A stretch of DNA of 64,000 nt from Epichloe hybrida. Its lineage: Eukaryota > Ascomycota > Sordariomycetes > Hypocreales > Clavicipitaceae. The notes below the pieces were generated by a model. It did not search any database. It worked only from the letters and a program-made list of their open reading frames with translations, and was not told where the DNA came from. Within the stretch, counting starts at the first letter, position 1. The number at the start of each line of letters is the position of its first letter. Position numbers and translations under genes: made by a program. The DNA lies in assembly GCA_019022495.1 (NCBI GenBank), contig JAFEKR010000018.1, positions 372,001-436,000 of the forward strand. Direction: 5' to 3'. Below, piece by piece: positions 13,395-25,547 of this stretch.

Positions 13395-15185
13395 CGGGTG
13401 TGACTTTGTAGCACTGTGAGTGGTATTGATTGGCACATCATCTTCGTACTGTTCCAAATGAGATGCTTTGTCAACGTCTCTATTAATCGCGGTCGTCGCG
13501 ACTCAAACAACACAGACCCGATCATTTTCGTGCCAAAGGTCAGGCACGCCACGGTGGGGTGAAAAGAGCTTGATGGTGAGGCCGTGACTTCCATTACCCC
13601 GTGGCCGAAATCACGCTAAAAAAAAGTGCGATTCCACCCTGCGACGCCTTATCCGACAATCGCGACGTCCTCCGTGGTTTGGCGGCATTGGCGGCAGGCC
13701 TCGCCCACGTGAAGTGCCATGTTGTTTTGTGGCGCGGGAGTTGTGCAAAAGGCACTCTTTCCCAGTTTAGTGCGCCTCTTACCACAGTGGCCAGGGTATT
13801 GTTGGAAGAGATGGCCACAGATGCTGCTGTAGAAAAGATACCATCCGCAATGGCACCCAGCAGGACCGGACGGGTTTTGAACCCGATTCTGGGAGACGGT
13901 TTCACCGATTTGGCTGGGAGTGATGTTTGCCGGAGCCTGGCGGTGAGCCATGGCGAGAAAAGGTATGTGGGGGGGGGGGGGTTCGGGACTTGTTGGTGAA
14001 GACTGAAGAGCAAGGACTTGAAGCGTCGCTCGAACTTAGAGTTAAGGAAGAATTTGTTGTTGCTTGTAACGAGGAAGGAAGCTGTGACTCATGGTTCGCC
14101 ATGCATTTGTTTGCTTTGCCGCATGCCTGTGAATCACGTGCAATATCCCTGTGTTTGTGCGCGAAGCCAACTTGCAACAAGCTCAGCTGCCTCCTGCCTT
14201 TTCGCGAGGGCCACCGGGTTTTCCGATTCCGATATGGTGATCCGCCTTGCGCACACGTGACTAGCTGGTAGCTTTGCCTTTGTACTCCTGAATGTATGTC
14301 CCACATTCGGAAATATGGCCAAGATGCAAAAACATGCGGAGAATAGATTAGTCAATTTTGCCGTCTTGGGCGGGGCGGGCCCCGTACAGGCTCGCGTCAC
14401 TGTCTCGCGTCACTGTCTCGCGTCACTGTCTCGCGTCACTGTCTCGCGTCACTGTCTCGCGTCACTGTCTCGCGTCACTGTCTCGCGTCACTGTCTCGCG
14501 TCACTGTCTCGTCATGATGAGTGGGAACTGATCGCTTCGGAGCTTTGAAGCACAAGTGAGAAGATGCGAGAAGATGGAAAAAATGAAGAGGGGCAACAAA
14601 CACGGTCACAGAGGAAGGGGTAATCGTGTCAAATTTTTTGACGTGAGTAACATCAGTTCATGCTGTGAGTAACGCCAATTCATGCTGTGAGTAAAACTCG
14701 AACGGATTTGAGTTTGACTGCGGTCACGAACCATGACTCTTGCGCTAACGAAGCCACCAAGTTAATCGCTAACTTTGCTCTTACCTCGCAGCCCTCTGTA
14801 TTTATAACCTTAAAGCTTATTCCTATATTAGGTTTTATTCCCTTCCTGCCGTCTAATGGGTGGGAACTGACAGACCAACGGCCGTATGTTTTCCCTTCAC
14901 TCATCAGTTGTTCAACCTGTCACCAAGTCGCCTTGGCCAGTCTTGGTATTTACCACTCAAGGAAAGCGCATGACTGTGGTTGTTTTGTTGCAATATGATA
15001 CTAAGAGCGAAGATTTTAGTGCGTGAAGATTAAGGTGATATAGCCTTTGAGCCAATTTAGGTAGGTTTGCGCCCGCATAAAAAAGACAAACCTAATACTT
15101 AGTTTAACCTTAAAAGCGAGTTCTTCCCGTGGCTATATAAAGCTCAGTCGCCAAGGATCAGGTCCCATTCCATCTACAGGAATCG
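13395..15185. other. Repeat-bearing intergenic region at the left edge of the accessory island
   Basis: About 1.8 kb. 13.6-14.0 kb has overlapping open frames on both strands with no recognisable product. 14.39-14.51 kb is a perfect 13-bp minisatellite. 14.64-14.70 kb holds short imperfect repeats of the type CATGCTGTGAGTAA. From about 14.75 to 15.15 kb the sequence turns AT-rich with TTA-rich strings resembling decayed (RIP-like) DNA. No gene is supported. Confidence 0.4.
14391..14507 (+). repeat. 13-bp minisatellite, nine perfect copies
   Basis: The unit CTCGCGTCACTGT is repeated nine times head to tail without a mismatch (117 bp), then breaks into CTCGTCATGATGA. The lack of divergence points to recent expansion. 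No spacers, so it is not a CRISPR. Confidence 0.95.
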
Positions 15186-17291
15186 TTGGAGAGTAATTTC
15201 GATTCTATTCTGAGACATCAGTGCTTTCTTGTTTTTATTTCTGAAAGTCGCTTTCCGGAAAGTCACACAAACATTCTAGGTTCCAGAGAAGAGGCAGAAA
15301 CTCCCAAGACTACGAATTCGGCTATTTGGCGCACCACTCACATTGACTTTTGCCAGTCGCCTCTTTTATCAAGCGGCTCATCAGATATGGCGGAGGTACC
15401 ATACTTGCTTAGGCAGAGGGACTTCTTTGAATCGCGGTCCAGCGGCGTTCAAGGTGTTCCTTCGCTTTACCCGCGTCACGGAATTAATTCACCAGCGGTG
15501 CCAGTTCTGGAAGCAACACCAGCGGTGCCAGTTCTGGAAGCAACACCAACGGTGCCAGTTCTGGAAGCAACACCATCTGTCATTTTGGAGCACTCAGCTA
15601 GTGTTCTAAAATCAGCCACATCCGTCCATACCACATCCGTCCATACCAAGCGCCTATGTGAACGAACGCGATTAGCTTTCAGCAAAATCAGGGGCAAGTT
15701 TCTCAGCGCAAGATCCATGTTATCGCGTCGAAACGCACCCGGTAAAGATGTTCCAGAGCCATCTGCTACAATGTCTGGCACACCTACGAGGCGAAGCATT
15801 ACGAGCCAAGAGCCATCTGCTATGATATCTAGCACACCTACGAGGCGAAGCATTACGAGCCAAGAGCCATCTGCTATGATATCTAGCACACCTACGAGGC
15901 GAAGCATCACGAGCCAAGAGCCATCTGCTGCAATGTCTGGCACATCTACGAGGCGAAGCATCACGAGCCATGAGAGTTCACAGTGCGCATTTCCTCTCAT
16001 GTCTTTGCCCAATGAGATGATACTACAAGTTATGTGTTGTCTACCTCCAATGTCTTTATACAGCCTCCGTCACACTTCGTCCATATTTATGGCGTTTTTT
16101 GATTTAAAATTGTTCAAAGCGTACCATCAACAATCTACAACACTCCGCAACCACATGAGTTTTGACCTACAGAAGTTATGCGACGCGGAAAAGAACGTCA
16201 TTGCCGGCTATTTGCACCACAGTATGTATTGCAGCTCATGTATCGCGGCTGGAGAGGCTGGAATTATTGAAGAGAGATTAAAGGCGCTGCGCCGGTTGCG
16301 ATACTGTGACGGATGCAAACGAGAACACTCAAACGCTCTTTTCTTCCCCGAGGATGGCGAAGAACATGGTGGCACATCTGGTAGCGGAACATGTATGGGA
16401 CGACTCGGACATTTTAAGCCTTGCGATCATCATTCATGCAAGTCCGTCACATGGCGGGATATCGAATGGCACGCCCAGTTCGGATGTTTCATATCTGCAT
16501 GCATGGACCGGTCACATGAGCCCGAGTTTGAATACATACATAGTTTCTACCAGGGTGGAAGTGCCTTCCCAAGGCTCGTGGCAATCCGTAGATGGGAGCT
16601 TCCCTCCATCTTCGGCCTAGGATATGGGTGGGATATACCTCTCCTTACAGTCAACTATAGGACTGCCCCCCCTCTAGCCGACATTAAGGAAAAAATTTCC
16701 AAATTGCTCGAGAATGCCTTTCAAAACCATAGGCTATGCCGGCACATCTCCATCCAGAAAGAGATCCGGAATTTTGTTGAGTCTGGCATCTGCAGTTGCT
16801 TCAGGAAATATGGGAATATCAGTTGTCATGATTTTCTCGAAGGCTGTCAATGTGGAAGGCAAACGACTCTGCAGTGTCGTGTTTGTGGTGCTGTATACAT
16901 GTGGCTCTACTTCTCCGATCGGGTGATTATATCGATGCGGTATATTTGGACCATTCAAAGGCCGACTAGTCTTGGATGGCTGGGCTTGATCAACAAAGAA
17001 AAATTCTTCACCGCATACAACAAGCATGTTCTTTGGTGTGATAAGGGAGATTGCCGTACTAACAGAAATGCACTATGGGAAACACTAGTGAAAGAGAATG
17101 GCAGGAGGGAGGCGTACCAAGTTCTAGGTGGGAGTCGTAGGGAAGGTCTCGACGTTGAAGAGGCATTGGCCGTGTCCCAGGGCGACCCCGAGAGTGTCTG
17201 GTTTGACGTTTCAAATGAGGATTACACCGACGAATGGGATTGTCGAGAGGTGTGGAAGGCATCCCAGCTAGGGTCTCTCCGTAGCTGGTGA
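15186..17291 (+). CDS. F-box protein with two in-frame tandem repeats, lineage-specific type
   Basis: Single exon, up to 701 residues; an internal ATG at 15387 is an alternative start (residue 68). Residues about 269-308 (FPLMSLPNEMILQVMCCLPP and onward) form an F-box, the SKP1-binding module of SCF ubiquitin ligases. The C-terminal half is Cys/His-rich (CSSC, CDGCKREH, GCFISAC) without a named domain; similar F-box proteins occur as expanded families in ascomycetes. Between the start and the F-box lie two coding minisatellites: a 9-residue unit (PAVPVLEAT) three times and an 18-residue Ser/Thr-rich unit four times. It sits directly upstream of the micro-exon locus A and on the same strand. 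The F-box call is fairly secure; the target is unknown. Confidence 0.7.
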   Translation: MESNFDSILRHQCFLVFISESRFPESHTNILGSREEAETPKTTNSAIWRTTHIDFCQSPLLSSGSSDMAEVPYLLRQRDFFESRSSGVQGVPSLYPRHGINSPAVPVLEATPAVPVLEATPTVPVLEATPSVILEHSASVLKSATSVHTTSVHTKRLCERTRLAFSKIRGKFLSARSMLSRRNAPGKDVPEPSATMSGTPTRRSITSQEPSAMISSTPTRRSITSQEPSAMISSTPTRRSITSQEPSAAMSGTSTRRSITSHESSQCAFPLMSLPNEMILQVMCCLPPMSLYSLRHTSSIFMAFFDLKLFKAYHQQSTTLRNHMSFDLQKLCDAEKNVIAGYLHHSMYCSSCIAAGEAGIIEERLKALRRLRYCDGCKREHSNALFFPEDGEEHGGTSGSGTCMGRLGHFKPCDHHSCKSVTWRDIEWHAQFGCFISACMDRSHEPEFEYIHSFYQGGSAFPRLVAIRRWELPSIFGLGYGWDIPLLTVNYRTAPPLADIKEKISKLLENAFQNHRLCRHISIQKEIRNFVESGICSCFRKYGNISCHDFLEGCQCGRQTTLQCRVCGAVYMWLYFSDRVIISMRYIWTIQRPTSLGWLGLINKEKFFTAYNKHVLWCDKGDCRTNRNALWETLVKENGRREAYQVLGGSRREGLDVEEALAVSQGDPESVWFDVSNEDYTDEWDCREVWKASQLGSLRSW
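15492..15572 (+). repeat. 27-bp coding minisatellite (3 copies)
   Basis: Three copies of a 27-bp unit encoding PAVPVLEAT / PTVPVLEAT, residues 103-129 of the F-box protein; a partial fourth (PSV) follows. In frame, so copy-number changes would not break the protein. Confidence 0.9.
15756..15971 (+). repeat. 54-bp coding minisatellite (4 copies)
   Basis: Four copies of a 54-bp unit encoding EPSA-(T/M/A)-M-(S/I)-S/G-T-P/S-T-R-R-S-I-T-S-Q/H, residues 191-262 of the F-box protein. Each unit is Ser/Thr-rich with a TRRS basic site, so it could be a phosphorylation platform (inference). Copies 2 and 3 are nearly identical, suggesting recent duplication. Confidence 0.9.
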
Positions 17292-17610: not shown

Positions 17611-19199
17611 TTGGGAGGAAAATTAGGTCCCGCAAACCCATCCTTTACTTTGACAACTTGTCCTGGCACTCGTGTGTCCTGCTTTACAGCTGGCACACAA
17701 ACCTTGGCGAAACCAGACAAGCCCTCCACACTGTCAAATACGGAGCACATATTCTTCCTGCAGAAGTTTTTACACCAACGAGCAACAAAAACAAAAACGA
17801 CAACGAAGACGAAGACGAAGACGACCATGACCACAACAACGTTTTACGAAAAACTATTAATAGCCAGGGCAATTATTGCCATTATTGTCACCGTTGTGGG
17901 TGCTATTATTTCTTATTTCGGCACTACGTGGGCTTAGGAGGCCAACGAGCGCGCCAAAGAAAAACGGGGTACGTGTGAATGACTACTGCTCTCTATTACA
18001 CTACTAACATTAAGATAGTGGAGGAAAGGAAGCAGCATGGTATTTATAGTCCATGTGTCCTAAGTACTTCATGATTACTAAACTTAAATAGTCGAGAACA
18101 TGTTGAAGCGTGGTATGTAAAACCATTCCCTTCTTTGACATCCAATACTAACACTCTATACCTCAAATAGACGAGGAGAGGGAGAAGCGCGGTACGTTTG
18201 AGTTGCTATTGCTCTCTATGACAATACTAATATCAGATAGGGGAGGAGAAGAAGAAGCGCGGTACGTGTGAATTGCTATTACTCTCAGTAACACTACTAA
18301 CATCAGACAGAGGAGGAAGAGGAGAAGCGCGGTACGTGTGAGTTACTATTACTCTCTATAACACTGCTAATATTGGACAGGGGAGGAGAGGGAGAAGCGT
18401 GGTACGTGTGAGTTGCTATTGATCTCTATAACACTACTAATAATAGACAGGGGAGGAGAGGGAGAAGCGTGGTATGTGTGAATTACTACTACTCTCTATA
18501 ACACTGCTAATATTAGACAGAGGAGGAGAAGGCGAAGCGCGGTATGTAAAAACCACGTCTCTTTAGCATTTTTAAACTACTAATATAAGGTAGCCGAGGA
18601 AGTTCTCAAGCGCGGTATGTAAAAACCACGCCTCTTTTTAGTATTTTTCAACTGCTAATATAAGGTAGCCGAGGAGGTTATCAAGCGCGGTATGTGTACG
18701 TTTCCGTTCCTTTATGTCATAGTGTTAACATCGCCTAGGAGAGGAGGTGGAGAAGCGGGGTATGTATATATTTCTACTCCTCTCCGATGAGCGTGTTGCT
18801 TATTGAATATTAGGGGAGGAGCGGGAGGACTTCCGTCAAAGGAAGATAGCGGCGGCGTGGGCGCAGGCGAAGCGCGGTACGTATATATTTCTACTCCTCT
18901 CCGATGAGCGTGTTGCTTATTGAATATTAGACGAGGAGCGGGAGAAGCGCGGTACGTATATATTTCTACTCCTCTTCGGTGAGCGTGTTACTTATTGAAT
19001 CTTAGACGAGGAGCGCTGGGATTTCCAGCAGAGGAAGGCGGCAGCAGCGAAGGCCGCCCTCGCAGCGGCAGCAGCAACACCGTTGCCTCCGCCGACCCTG
19101 CCGCCCCCGCCGCCACCGTCGACGACCTCCAGCGCGACTGGTCACGGCCGAGGAGGGGGTTCGATGTCTCTGACATCGAAACCACTCTGGCGCCCTTAG
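17611..19199 (+). CDS. Locus A: micro-exon gene encoding a membrane segment plus an array of charged heptads
   Basis: First exon 17611-17968 encodes a Lys/Thr-rich stretch, one hydrophobic helix (AIIAIIVTVVGAIISYF), an in-frame TAG at 17935-17937, then EANERAKEKR. Micro-exons follow at 18019-18039, 18092-18112, 18171-18191, 18241-18261, 18311-18331, 18381-18401, 18451-18471, 18521-18541, 18594-18614, 18669-18689, 18739-18759, 18814-18876 and 18931-18951, then a last exon from 19006. Every micro-exon is 21 nt (one is 63) and phase 1, with GTACGT/GTATGT donors, mostly CTAAC/CTAAT branch sites and TAG/CAG acceptors. Units read VEERKQH, VENMLKR, DEEREKR, GEEKKKR, EEEEEKR, GEEREKR (twice), EEEKAKR, AEEVLKR, AEEVIKR, GEEVEKR. 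Phase 0 and phase 2 meet stops; phase 1 does not. The last exon (DEERWDFQQRK then Ala- and Pro-rich) stops at 19199 in phase 1. A stop shared with loci B and C lies at 19217-19219 but in another frame, so a shift may exist there. Function unknown; coding status needs RNA data. Confidence 0.55.
18019..19005 (+). repeat. Tandem exon-intron array (about 70-75 bp period)
   Basis: Thirteen head-to-tail units, each one 21-nt (once 63-nt) exon plus one 49-58 bp intron. Neighbouring introns are often near copies of each other: 18262-18310, 18332-18380, 18402-18450 and 18472-18520 form one group. 18542-18593 and 18615-18668 form a second. 18760-18813, 18877-18930 and 18952-19005 form a third, almost identical. 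The array therefore grew by duplication of whole exon-plus-intron units in several rounds. Confidence 0.85.
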
Positions 19200-19208
19200 A
19201 CGATGGAC

Positions 19209-19469
19209 GTGTTGAATAGGGAGACAAATCACGGTAAAAAATAACACCCGGGGAGAAGAGGCAGGCCAATCCACGATAAAAATAACGCCATAGACGTGTT
19301 GAATAGGGAGACAAATCACGCTATAAAAAAACACCCGGGGAGAAGAGGCAGGCCAATCCACGATAAAAATAACGCCATTGACGTGTTGAATAGGGAGACA
19401 AATCACGCTAAAAAAAAACACCCGGGGAGAAGAGGCAGACCAATCCACGATAAAAATAACACCCGTGGA
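19209..19469 (+). repeat. 87-bp tandem repeat, three copies
   Basis: Copies start at 19209, 19296 and 19383, each beginning GTGTTGAATAGGGAGACAAA and containing an ACACCCGGGGAGAAGAGGCA block. They lie at the 3' end of locus A. Single divergent copies of the first part occur after loci B (about 22650) and C (about 24060, inverted). Confidence 0.9.
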
Positions 19470-21335: not shown

Positions 21336-22662
21336 AATGGCACTAACGTGCCTGGTACCGCCAGCTCCTGCTGGTGACTAGAGCTAGCACTAGCACTAGC
21401 ACCAGCACCAACACCAACGCTAACACTAATAACAACAACAACAATGCCCCCATTGAGAAACCCAACCTGCCCAGCGGCACCAGCCCTGGCCCCAGCAACA
21501 GCACCAGCAGCAACAGCACCAGCAGCATAAGCAGAAGAAGGGTCGTGGGAGGAGACCTGCAAAATGACGTTGCAACACGCACAAATTAGTGGCCAGTCGG
21601 CTGCGCCTCTTTTTTCGTGCAACAGTCATTTCCGGCGTTCAAATCCCACTAGATTTCAGGCGTCTTCAAATTCTAGTGGGATCTGAACGCCCACAGGAAC
21701 GCCCTAGTAAGACGCGGTATGTTAAGTATTTAATAATAAGTAAAGTCATTATTATTATATTATGCTAACATTAGGAAGTCAATGAAGTGGAAAAGCGAGA
21801 TATGTCAACTTGACAGTCGAAGAGATTGAGAAGCGTGGTATGTTTAATTTCTTTTTTTCCCCCACGCTCCACTAGCGTGTGTGTGCAGCTCCTCCCTTCG
21901 CGATAAACACATGGATAACACTCAATAGGGGAGGAAAGCGGCGGATGAGGCGGCGGATGAGGCGGCGGATATGGCGGCGGCCAAGGTCGCCCGGCACGCA
22001 GCAGCGGATCCAAAACATGTCCGTAATTTAGCTGCTCATGCCGGGCGGCTTTGATTTCCAGTGGGAGTTCAACGCCCACTAGAACACAGAAGCGCGGTAT
22101 GTCAAGCCCTTGTTTCCCTACGTCGCACGTATATACTAACCTTAGACAGAGGAGGAACGGCAGAAGCGCAGTATGAAACCCCCCCCCCTTTACTATGACT
22201 ACCTTGGTAACATTTTTTCAATAGAGGAGGAAAAGCAGAAGAGGCGTATGTACAGCCCCTCCCTACCATGACTACCTTGGTAACACTCTTTCAATAGGAG
22301 AGGAGCGCCTCGACTGGCTCGAGAAGAGGCTGAAGGCCTCGGTATCAGCACTTTCTCCGCCCCTGCCGCCCCGGCCGGCCGCCCGGCCACTGCGCCCGCT
22401 CCTCCCACTGCTCCCGCTCCCCCTGCCGCCGCCAGAGCCTCAGTGCCGCCAGCTTCAGCACCGCCAGCGGCAGCACCACCTCCCACCCCGCCACCGCCCC
22501 CGCCGGCCCCGCCGCCAGAGCCTATCCCCTTCAGCTAGGCTCGCAGACAGCCGCACGTGCGGCAGCCCGGGCCCGCCGCGCCGCCAATTCTCCGGCAAAC
22601 GCCGTCAAAGGCCCATCTCGGGCACAATCTTTCCGGCTTTAAAAGCAACACGTGTTGAATAG
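21336..22662 (+). pseudogene. Locus B: decayed copy of the micro-exon gene
   Basis: The same parts as locus C can be traced: an MPPLRNPTCPAAPALAP-like leader, SWEETCKM, then FKF-TAG-WDLNAHRNAL ending at donor 21717. A VNEVEKR unit follows whose downstream intron is cut down and lacks its GT. Next come VEEIEKR (21817-21837) and an Ala/Asp-rich exon from 21929 (KAADEAADEAADMAAAKVAR, other frame). EEERQKR (22150-22170) and a unit at 22225-22245 precede a last exon from 22298, REERLDWLEKR, Pro-rich, ending ALKATRVE at TAG 22660-22662. Several TAA/TGA/TAG stops and frame breaks lie in the first half, so I call it a pseudogene. The second half is still open in phase 1. Confidence 0.5.
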
Positions 22663-23939: not shown

Positions 23940-24060
23940 ATGTTAGCATGCTGCGGCGAGACCGTCTTCGATCTTAGGTACACAGGGGTTTTTTTTTTCG
24001 TGGTTGTACATGCACGGGAGTTATTTTTTATCGTGATGTGCTGCCTATTCAACATGTGTT
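23940..24060 (-). repeat. 3' flank shared by the micro-exon loci, copy at locus C
   Basis: Read on the minus strand it runs GTTGAATAGGCAGCACATCA, then GTACAACCACGAAA, then AAGATCGAAGACGGTC. These are the counterparts of the sequence after locus A (19209-19530), only the first part being kept. Confidence 0.6.
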
Positions 24061-25547
24061 GCTTTTAGTGCCAGGGAAATTTCGTCGAGACAGGCCTAGG
24101 GCGACCTTGGCCTCGGCGGCGTTGGTGGTGGTGGTACTGCTGCTGCTGCTGCCACGCGAAGCCTCTTGTCTAGCCAGTTGGAGTGCTTCTCCTCTATTGA
24201 AAGAATATTACCAAGGTAGTCATGGTAAGGGAGGGCTATATACACTAGGCTTCTGCCGTTCTTTATCTATCTAAGGTTAGCATATACGTATAACGCAGGG
24301 AAACAGGGGCTTGACATACCGCGCTTTTCCAGGGCCATCTCGTGGGCTTTCCAATCCCACTAGAATTTAAACCCCCCGAAAATGACCGAAGTAAACGCGA
24401 TAATAATGGCCGGTATCATATTGCAGGTCTCGTCCCACGAGCCTGCCTTGGCTGCTACTGCTGCCCTCTTGTCCAGCCAGTCACGGCGCTCCTCAGCTAT
24501 TGGAAGAATGTTACTAAGGTAGTCATGGATTCATGGTAAGGGGGGGCTGTACATACCGCGCTTCTACTGCTCCTCGGCTTCCTGCTGTTAAAATAATGCA
24601 ACAATAATAGCTTTACTTATTATTAAATAATTAACTTACCACGTTTTGCCACGGCGTGCTTGTGGGCTTTCCAATCCCACTAGAGTCGGCAAAGCCCAGA
24701 ACCAATCACCCAAACCGCGGAGATAGCAGCCACTATGGCTGTTGCTTTTGCTGCTGCTGTTGTTACTGCTGCTGCTGTTGTTGCTGCTGCTGCTAGGCAG
24801 GTCCATAGCAATGGTAGCATCTTTGGTGTTGGCGTTGGTGTTGGTGCTAGTGTTAGTGCTAGTGCTATTTCTGCTGCTACTGCTGCCCTCTTGTCTAGCC
24901 AGTCATATTGCTCCTTAGCTATTAGAAGAATGTTACCAAGGTAGTCATGAATTCATGGTAAGGGGGGGCTCTGCATACCGCGCTTCTGCCGTTCCTCGAC
25001 TATCTAAGGTTAGTATATACGTGCGACGTAGGGAAACAAGGGCTTAATATACTTCGCTTTTCGATTTCGTCCGCTTCCTGCTGTTAAAATAATGCAATAA
25101 TAATAAATTTACTTATCATTTAACACTTAACTCACCGCGTCTGTCCAAGGCAATCGTGTAGAGGGTCCAATCCCACTAGAATCGGACCCCCCCGGTTACA
25201 GCAAGCCACAAGAAAGTGAGACCGGCCATTACGGCCATTGTGATACCCTGTGGCATCTGCCACGACGATGCTGCGGTTGCTGGTGCTGTTTCTGCAGCAG
25301 CTGCTGCTGATGCCAGGGCTGGTGCTAGGCAGGTCCACGGTAATGGTGGCATTTCTAGTGTTAGTGCTGGTGTTGGTGCTGCTTTTGCTGCTGCTGCTGC
25401 TTTTGCTGCTGCTGCTGCTTTTGCTACTGCTGCTGTTTTTGCTGCTGCTGCTGTTTTTGCTGCTGCTGTTGTTTTTGCTGCTGCTAATGCTAGGGCTGGG
25501 GCCGCTGGGCAGGTCCATGGCAATGGTGCCATTTTTGATGTTGGCAT
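24045..25547 (-). CDS. Locus C: inverted micro-exon gene with repeated membrane cassettes and in-frame TAGs
   Basis: Exons on the minus strand: 25547-25136, 25073-25053, 24999-24979, 24918-24640, 24577-24557, 24496-24320, 24266-24246 and 24193-24045. All internal exons are multiples of three (21, 21, 279, 21, 177, 21) and phase 1. Micro-exons read ADEIEKR, IEERQKR, AEEQ-TAG-KR and DKERQKP. Long exons start KEQYDWLDKRAAVAA or EERRDWLDKRAAVAA. They continue Ala/Thr-rich, then hydrophobic (ITMAVMAGLTFLWLAVTGGV; IPAIIIAFTSVIFGG), then TAG-WDW and 11 more residues ending KR or RR. The end reads ALKATHVE-stop, as in locus B. Phase 1 holds five internal stops, all TAG (25176-8, 24680-2, 24564-6, 24360-2, 24096-8), and no TAA or TGA. 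If TAG stops translation, the first exon alone gives a 123-residue Ala-rich protein with a C-terminal membrane anchor. Pseudogene, recoding or extra introns remain possible. Confidence 0.45.

Follow-up and report, generated by a model that had tools for sequence, protein, structure and literature searches.

Within the 64,000-nucleotide stretch of DNA presented above (positions 372,001 to 436,000 of contig JAFEKR010000018.1, hereafter the window) lies a locus, A1, in which a first exon carrying a hydrophobic helix and an in-frame TAG is followed by an array of micro-exons of 21 or 63 nt, each specifying one or three mostly charged heptads. Related copies reside nearby, namely the decayed A2 and the sister gene A3, and in a second, diverged copy of the region on contig C84, which holds A1′ and A2′, the counterparts of A1 and A2. 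The layout of these copies, their single reading frame, the type of stop codon that interrupts it and the hairpins predicted around these stops rest on the sequence itself. They suggest, with a probability that we place at roughly 0.55, an orphan family of membrane proteins with a heptad stalk that has grown by exon-intron duplication and that would be translated only after UAG-to-UGG editing of the mRNA.

A micro-exon array in a single reading frame

The exon-intron model of A1 comprises the following elements.

17827 to 17968, forward strand: exon 1, containing the ATG, the hydrophobic helix, the TAG and the segment EANERAKEKR, with the donor after 17968
17935 to 17937, forward strand: the in-frame UAG, a candidate editing site, its adenosine in a predicted hairpin loop (probability 1.00)
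18019 to 18951, forward strand: the micro-exon array, twelve exons of 21 nt and one of 63 nt with 12 introns between them
18019-18039, 18092-18112, 18171-18191, 18241-18261, 18311-18331 and 18381-18401, forward strand: the first six 21-nt exons
18451-18471, 18521-18541, 18594-18614, 18669-18689 and 18739-18759, forward strand: the seventh to eleventh 21-nt exons
18814-18876, forward strand: the 63-nt exon
18931-18951, forward strand: the final 21-nt exon
19006 to 19199, forward strand: the last exon, encoding DEERWDFQQRK and an Ala/Pro-rich tail up to a terminal TAG, with its A1′ counterpart in the same frame

An earlier sequence-only reading of this locus opened just past the exon-1 TAG and thus missed exon 1, the UAG, its hairpin, the sister copies and the matter of editing, although its description of the array as thirteen consecutive phase-1 micro-exons, twelve of 21 nt and one of 63 nt, is borne out by the model. 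In this sequence model all 13 are in phase 1 at both entry and exit and encode one or three heptads each. The first six exons of the array read VEERKQH, VENMLKR, DEEREKR, GEEKKKR, EEEEEKR and GEEREKR, and the remainder GEEREKR (for a second time), EEEKAKR, AEEVLKR, AEEVIKR, GEEVEKR, GEEREDFRQRKIAAAWAQAKR and DEEREKR. The proposed unit consensus, a start of x-E-E and an end in KR, holds at each of its two ends for 12 of the 13 exons, the first unit ending in QH and the second reading VEN. The splicing signals had been called good throughout; the 14 introns of the A1 model, 49-58 nt in length, are indeed all GT-AG, but the signals vary, with a GTRNGT donor in 21 and a strict CTRAY branch-site motif in 14 of the 24 modelled introns of A1 and A1′. 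As had been claimed, the heptad frame stays open across the array, its sole stop being the TAG in exon 1, and stops do occur in the alternative frames, as TG|A across 18111-18171 and 18470-18521 in one and as TGA at 18104-18106 in the third.

The possibility that such a repeat might be found elsewhere as noncoding satellite DNA had also been raised. A genome-wide scan with the motif AAGCGYGGTAYGT returned 22 matches (15 on contig C67, 6 on C84 and 1 on C100; a reversed control pattern gave 4), and 21 of the 22 fall at the window locus and the C84 locus. The A1 array is not genome-wide satellite DNA. The earlier characterization of the repeats as coiled is doubtful because 82 of the 120 residues between the A1 TAG and the DFQQRK of the last exon are E, K or R, with V, L, I, M and F together contributing 11. 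As judged by composition only, the A1 stalk does not have the hydrophobic a/d pattern of a classic coiled coil, and a single charged helix would be a better fit than a coiled coil with a hydrophobic core.

The genome (G000; 79.9 Mb in 156 contigs) contains two diverged copies of the studied region. The copy on C84 is collinear with the window, the product of the kinase gene upstream being 94% identical and the DNA downstream 93.5% identical over a 3.6-kb match. A1′ consists of nine phase-1 micro-exons (seven of 21 nt and two of 63 nt) and a similar tail, in a frame that is open downstream of its exon-1 TAG. The match of exon length, phase and protein period had been judged unlikely to arise by chance, and the C84 copy supports that judgment by keeping exon lengths, phase and frame despite having 9 units against 13 in A1. 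These numbers differ by whole exon-intron units. Comparison of the copies indicates that stalk length changes by gain or loss of such units, which leaves the frame unshifted.

In-frame UAG codons and their predicted hairpins

Exon 1 of A1 translates as MTTTTFYEKLLIARAIIAIIVTVVGAIISYFGTTWA, TAG and EANERAKEKR up to the first donor, and that of A1′ as MWESLPTAGEIFQFFWPPLTAAFAAFAAWLA, TAG and KTHQRNREKR. The ATG, the hydrophobic stretch and the TAG are similarly placed in both (KD19 maximum 2.81 in A1 and 1.26 in A1′). The N-terminal DNA of A1 and A1′ yields no blastn match to one another, and the proteins share only scattered identities there; identity amounts to 90.8% in the 5′ flank (up to window position 17787) and to about 82% on the array side. 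The order of ATG or N-terminus, helix, TAG and heptads is common to A1, A1′, A2′ and the three tandem modules of A3 (A3a, A3b and A3c), which together provide six clean junctions. At all six, a hydrophobic stretch (KD19 1.26-2.81) precedes the TAG and ends 2-8 residues upstream of it. With the TAG read as tryptophan, single-sequence AlphaFold2 modeling returns one helix over residues 3-46 of the 47 encoded by A1 exon 1 (pLDDT 87) and over residues 2-56 of the 58 encoded by A3 exon 6 (pLDDT 81.5); that is, a continuous helix is predicted to span the TAG in both exons.

The repetition of this arrangement within a single gene is most evident in A3, the relevant features of which are listed here.

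24045 to 25547, reverse strand: A3, a sister gene of 8 exons, four of them of 21 nt, with a modelled coding sequence of 1101 nt
25176 to 25178, reverse strand: module a junction UAG, its adenosine placed in the triloop that caps a predicted hairpin of 15 bp (loop probability 1.00)
24680 to 24682, reverse strand: junction UAG of module b (hairpin-loop probability 1.00)
24360 to 24362, reverse strand: junction UAG of module c (hairpin-loop probability 0.84-0.93)
24564 to 24566, reverse strand: UAG that interrupts a heptad micro-exon (EEQ*KR) and is predicted to lie outside a loop
23026 to 26369, no strand assigned: the 3.34-kb stretch that holds A3 and is absent on C84, where the flanking matches lie ~10-13 bases apart

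Each of the three modules contains a linker, a hydrophobic helix, the TAG, a W-D-W-x5-A-x2-(K/R)-R segment and heptad micro-exons. The A3 frame includes six TAG codons, five internal and the terminal one at codon 366, and zero TAA or TGA, a condition that was reached by none of 2000 base shuffles of A3. Dispersed matches to an A3 DNA query (65, of which 20 loci were fetched) were also considered as further copies; the 14 translated outside the two clusters look like CAG/GCA repeats in other genes rather than members of the family.

The bias toward a single stop codon extends across the family. All eight internal in-frame stops of A1, A1′, A2′ (first three exons) and A3 are TAG, whereas the off-frame stops of the same models comprise 20 TAG, 20 TGA and 12 TAA (n=52); from the off-frame share of 20/52, the chance of eight TAGs in eight is ~5e-4, if common descent is ignored. 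The decayed A2, which has TAA and TGA, stands outside this count.

For the prediction of hairpins, the spliced sequence was folded with 25 nt on each side of the UAG, and the genomic context was used as a second version. In the spliced sequence, the UAG adenosine has a loop probability of 0.99-1.00 in A1, A1′, A2′, A3a and A3b, and the UAG of the A3 tail reaches 0.97-0.99; in genomic context the six clean junctions lie at 0.86-1.00. Overall, the UAG is placed in a predicted loop, with U at position -1, at 6/6 clean junctions (0.84-1.00) and at 7/8 internal stops. By comparison, 56 other UA sites in the same models have a mean loop probability of 0.37, and of the 1024 TAGs in the two strands of the window, 18.8% have a probability of at least 0.89, with 5.4% additionally reaching -13.7 kcal/mol. 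When the flanks were shuffled with the TAG kept, only 2 (A2′), 1 (A3a), 4 (A3b) and 20 (A3c) shuffles per 1000 were as good as the site itself. The junction sites are not independent of one another, because the A3 modules and A2′ have common ancestry. The relationship between stop and loop can nevertheless be followed in one instance in which the stop has moved. The A3 motif TAG-TGG-GAT-TGG corresponds to TGG-TGG-GAT-TAG in A2′, such that Trp and stop are swapped (the single such case), and the hairpin opens at the first codon in A3 and at the fourth in A2′. In this pair of sequences, the loop follows the stop when the TAG moves.

The placement of the TAG could also be accounted for without editing if it served as the 3′ splice site for an intron lying upstream, with the hydrophobic stretch being intronic or belonging to another isoform. 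TAG is a legal acceptor, the heptads start directly after it, and the DNA just upstream is hypervariable between copies, as an intron could be. However, the 250 nt upstream of the six clean TAGs contain two GTRNGT donors in total. That of A1 (GTGGGT) is situated 39 nt upstream of the TAG, and that of A3c (GTATGT, 194 nt upstream) belongs to the preceding micro-exon as its donor and would give an out-of-frame join; CTRAY is found within 45 nt at one of the six junctions. Moreover, in A3 modules b and c the linker, helix and TAG continue the frame of the heptad exon that comes before them, over ~79 and ~45 codons, and this explanation would leave six in-frame hydrophobic stretches and a moving hairpin unaccounted for. 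Judging from these signals, it is unlikely that the TAG is a splice site.

A further alternative is that the UAG acts as a genuine terminator in a two-frame design, the helix being a short upstream open reading frame or a small tail-anchored protein and the stalk being produced by reinitiation at a Met within the heptads or close to them, or by low-level readthrough. Four of the junctions have a Met past the TAG, within ENMLKR in A1 and A1′ and within MALEKR in A2′ and A3c, yet A3a and A3b have none soon after it, and A3 would need repeated reinitiation. Reinitiation also leaves the presence of the stop in a loop unexplained, and readthrough contexts are not known to put the stop in a loop. 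We regard this design as quite improbable.

Constraint and decay among the copies

Whether the heptads are maintained as protein was assessed by comparing A1 with A1′. The matching of units was made by the analyst, with five A1 micro-exons and one of A1′ left out as unmatched. The eight matched exons differ by 31 substitutions, none of which creates a stop (P 0.19, unremarkable alone). The proportion of synonymous sites changed (pS) is 0.306 (12/39.2) and that of nonsynonymous sites (pN) 0.111 (19/170.8; Fisher p 0.0035). Raw counts by codon position (8, 11 and 12 of 70 each) had suggested no constraint; counting by synonymous sites gave a pN/pS of ~0.36. For the neighboring genes, the same comparison of window and C84 gives a pS of 0.11 and a pN of 0.035 (kinase) or 0.059 (F-box). 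A similar excess of synonymous change is found between A3c and A2′, the closest of the six pairs of junction modules, in which the codons past the TAG show 3 synonymous changes against 1 that is nonsynonymous (p 0.01, not counting the Trp/stop codon); for linker, helix and post-TAG codons together, p is 0.0055. Constraint on the heptads is weak. The idea that the array is protein-coding, each micro-exon supplying its own heptad, is favored by the second copy and by the synonymous excess, and is not helped by the level of pN, which is considered below.

A2 is evidently broken.

21337 to 22545, forward strand: A2, decayed sister copy, in which micro-exon remnants and the Pro-rich tail persist (right boundary approximate, by eye)

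Read from its ATG, A2 has 9 stops, which include TAG, TAA and TGA, and a dispersed repeat is found in place of the helix, while the junction TAG (21674-21676) is still in a predicted loop (0.88). A sequence of ~50 bp in A2 (21575-21629) recurs in at least 39 other places in the genome at 91-100% identity, among the 49 matches listed, 40 of 121 candidates having been scored; it may be the terminal part of a mobile element that took the place of the A2 helix. The C84 counterpart, A2′, retains exon 1 and two further micro-exons. By eye, the third exon is followed by a 17-nt intron remnant and then a shifted second module, and this frameshifted module has a hairpin-loop probability of 0.00. A3 may also be partly decayed, because two of its acceptors would have to be AAG and one of its UAGs is outside a loop.

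Several observations weigh against a functional, edited family. The need for those two AAG acceptors in A3 is one, and the UAG within an A3 heptad is another, as its loop probability is 0.22-0.24 in the spliced sequence and 0.11 and 0.01 in genomic context. The hairpins of A1 and A1′ are unremarkable singly because 132 and 114 of 1000 flank shuffles, respectively, are equally good. The pN of the heptads (19/171) is not below the substitution rate of the introns (62/454; p 0.24), and the other five of the six module pairs, with pS of 0.32-0.51 and pN of 0.27-0.39, show no clear constraint. Two family searches of a 5.8-billion protein set returned no homologue among the 4375 and at least 7983 candidates scored. 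On the side of the editing machinery, the link to Ame1 that is described below is a putative one, at the level of the domain family, and no known edited gene with its UAG was found in the genome among kinase, OTT_1508, methylase and DUF726 candidates.

Part of this evidence would be expected if the genes were simply decaying, such that the TAGs are nonsense mutations and the arrays relics of a once functional family. Repeat-induced point mutation (RIP) would favor the change of TGG to TAG. Heptad substitution as high as that of introns, the scant constraint in five of six module pairs, the plainly broken A2 and the A3 TAG without a loop are all compatible with this explanation. On the other hand, the models of A1, A1′ and A3 contain no TAA, no TGA and no frameshift, the stops are equally placed in six modules and within predicted loops, and the synonymous excess in the A1-A1′ and A3c-A2′ pairs speaks against decay. 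In addition, the splice dinucleotides of nine matched introns are unchanged between A1 and A1′ at 36 of 36 bases (P ~0.005 at the intron substitution rate). Decay of the whole family seems unlikely.

Proposed expression, related systems and surroundings

For the preferred reading, that of an edited membrane-protein family, we infer splicing, editing and membrane insertion as follows. Exon 1 would supply the N-terminus and one hydrophobic helix, each symmetrical 21-nt exon would add seven charged, probably helical residues, and the last exon would add the Ala/Pro-rich tail. The unedited mRNA would yield a short protein ending at the hydrophobic helix. Adenosine-to-inosine (A-to-I) editing would convert UAG to UIG, read as UGG (Trp), adding the stalk and placing at the membrane edge a tryptophan that in most copies would be near other aromatic residues. 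Since the skipping of any micro-exon preserves the frame, splicing could be a further source of variation in stalk length. In A3, every edited junction would additionally give access to the module that follows. Conceivably, although we consider this doubtful, A3 could operate as an editing ladder in which the count of consecutive UAG-to-UGG edits sets the number of helices and stalks, yielding nested proteins from one gene; the ladder would have been lengthened by module duplication, and its presence or absence would be as in fast-evolving conflict genes.

Such a mode of expression may suit the probable lineage. The F-box protein encoded next to A1 has ten matches (best 76%), and the seven that are named belong to Conoideocrella (59%), Claviceps, Pochonia and Metarhizium, genera of Clavicipitaceae (Hypocreales, Sordariomycetes), so that the fungus probably belongs to this family or lies close to it. 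The editing machinery comprises Tad2, Tad3 and Ame1, and genes of the DUF726 family, the domain family of Ame1, are present in the genome. Ame1 is described as belonging to the DUF726 proteins and as having gained its function in editing within Sordariomycetes (PMC11087585), and A-to-I editing in this group is reported to convert UAG to UGG at sites with U at -1 in the loops of stable hairpins (PMC11156358; PMC4817773). In F. graminearum, 62.4% of edited sites are given as lying in hairpin loops, stable hairpins being favored, and the PUK1 site is reported as UAG-UAG, UAG-UGG or UGG-UAG across three species (PMC4817773), an exchange of Trp and UAG that resembles the one between A3 and A2′. By analogy with these fungi, the sexual stage is the likeliest time of editing. 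A second system, OLD-ZAO, is described as editing UAG under virus infection in Neurospora (PMC12754623). OTT_1508-like deaminase domains, of the type that the OLD-ZAO pair employs, are found here at C65:344057-344233 and C124:1407372-1407551, and a motif scan of three stretches revealed no convincing C2H2 zinc-finger gene beside OTT_1508 domains.

Several candidates for an independently known edited stop were rejected. An in-frame TAG in DUF726 (C69:687886 and two equal-scoring places) sits, by eye, in a 66-nt intron with a GTAAGT donor. Kinase TAGs were considered as a PUK1 control: five loci were translated (four of 13 rows with a TAG, plus one), their stops look intronic by eye, and PUK1 was not recognised among the five. 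The cytosine methylase family, of which RID is an example, has no stop within the matched domains.

The closest parallels are the premature-stop-corrected A-to-I edited genes of Sordariomycetes (PUK1, AMD1 and CHE1; zao-1/zao-2 of OLD-ZAO), which, like the family described here, carry an in-frame UAG in an otherwise open frame. The likeness extends to U at -1, to the preference for hairpin loops and to the presence, in a relative, of Trp where the stop would be (A2′ versus A3, one case). The named cases in the cited papers are a kinase with two tandem stops, a major facilitator superfamily protein, a DNA methyltransferase, regulators and zinc-finger factors. Unlike in these, the stop here is located between a hydrophobic helix and a repeat stalk, occurs in several sister copies and recurs once per module in A3. 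Among small edited genes, Spk-1 is described as a protein confined to Neurospora, with a pair of predicted membrane helices and a single edited site, and rfk-1 as a Neurospora driver that undergoes RNA editing (PMC8092558, the latter as cited therein). The passages on rfk-1 and Spk-1 mention no repeats or micro-exons, in which respect these spore killers differ from the present family. By analogy with them, the fast change of the copies, the presence or absence of A3 and the lack of a homologue in the searches might fit a role in conflict or reproduction.

The micro-exon genes (MEGs) of schistosomes and the bicycle genes of aphids had been offered as precedents for the array, a comparison that stands as an architectural parallel. 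MEGs likewise contain runs of short symmetrical exons, reported as 3-81 bp with introns of up to 5 kbp (PMC10526429). In A1 and A1′ the runs number 13 and 9, every micro-exon is in phase 1 and exactly 21 or 63 nt, and the A1 introns measure about 50 nt (49-58 nt). Secretion is a trait of MEG products; in A1, the N-terminus carries a hydrophobic helix. Bicycle proteins carry Cys-Tyr-Cys motifs; the A1 translation is without any cysteine, and nothing in the analysis indicates an effector role. Like the present family, bicycle genes are described as fast-evolving and as being identified from their gene structure and not from sequence (PMC9168663). In filamentous fungi, a micro-exon has been described in Trichoderma Xlr2, whose authors state that functional micro-exons were previously undescribed in these organisms and mention earlier predictions and tests in S. 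pombe (PMC11121469, 2024). That case resembles A1 in being a micro-exon in a filamentous fungus and differs in being one regulated exon in a transcription factor, with no array. Among the papers listed in searches of the open full-text literature, there was no fungal array of heptad micro-exons. If the proposed reading is correct, the family would combine two features not found described together, namely a fungal gene that adds a single heptad with each 21-nt exon and a UAG that is borne repeatedly by hairpins, and the length of a membrane protein would depend on mRNA editing. Because the stop is at an exact structural boundary, and because the loop moved with the stop in the single moved case, these genes would then provide a small natural experiment on the benefit that a gene draws from editing. 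Automatic annotation likely misses such genes twice, on account of exon size and of the stop.

Additional repeats occur around the locus. Directly behind A1 is an 87-bp tandem repeat of 2.9 copies (19206-19460), the unit length of which is a multiple of three, and further copies of it lie behind A1′ on C84. In C1:139524-142618 (around 1501-1595 within) there is a remnant of the last exon of A1 together with the sequence that follows it, without the array motif. The N-terminal part of the F-box gene frame contains 27-bp and 54-bp repeats (15490-15575 and 15755-15974), both multiples of three, and a 13-bp unit, CTCGCGTCACTGT, is repeated 9.3 times with a 100% match at 14391-14511. Finally, gene matches in G000 are often paired, with equal or differing scores, and some are threefold with equal scores; such multiplicity resembles that of hybrids, dikaryons or unphased assemblies.

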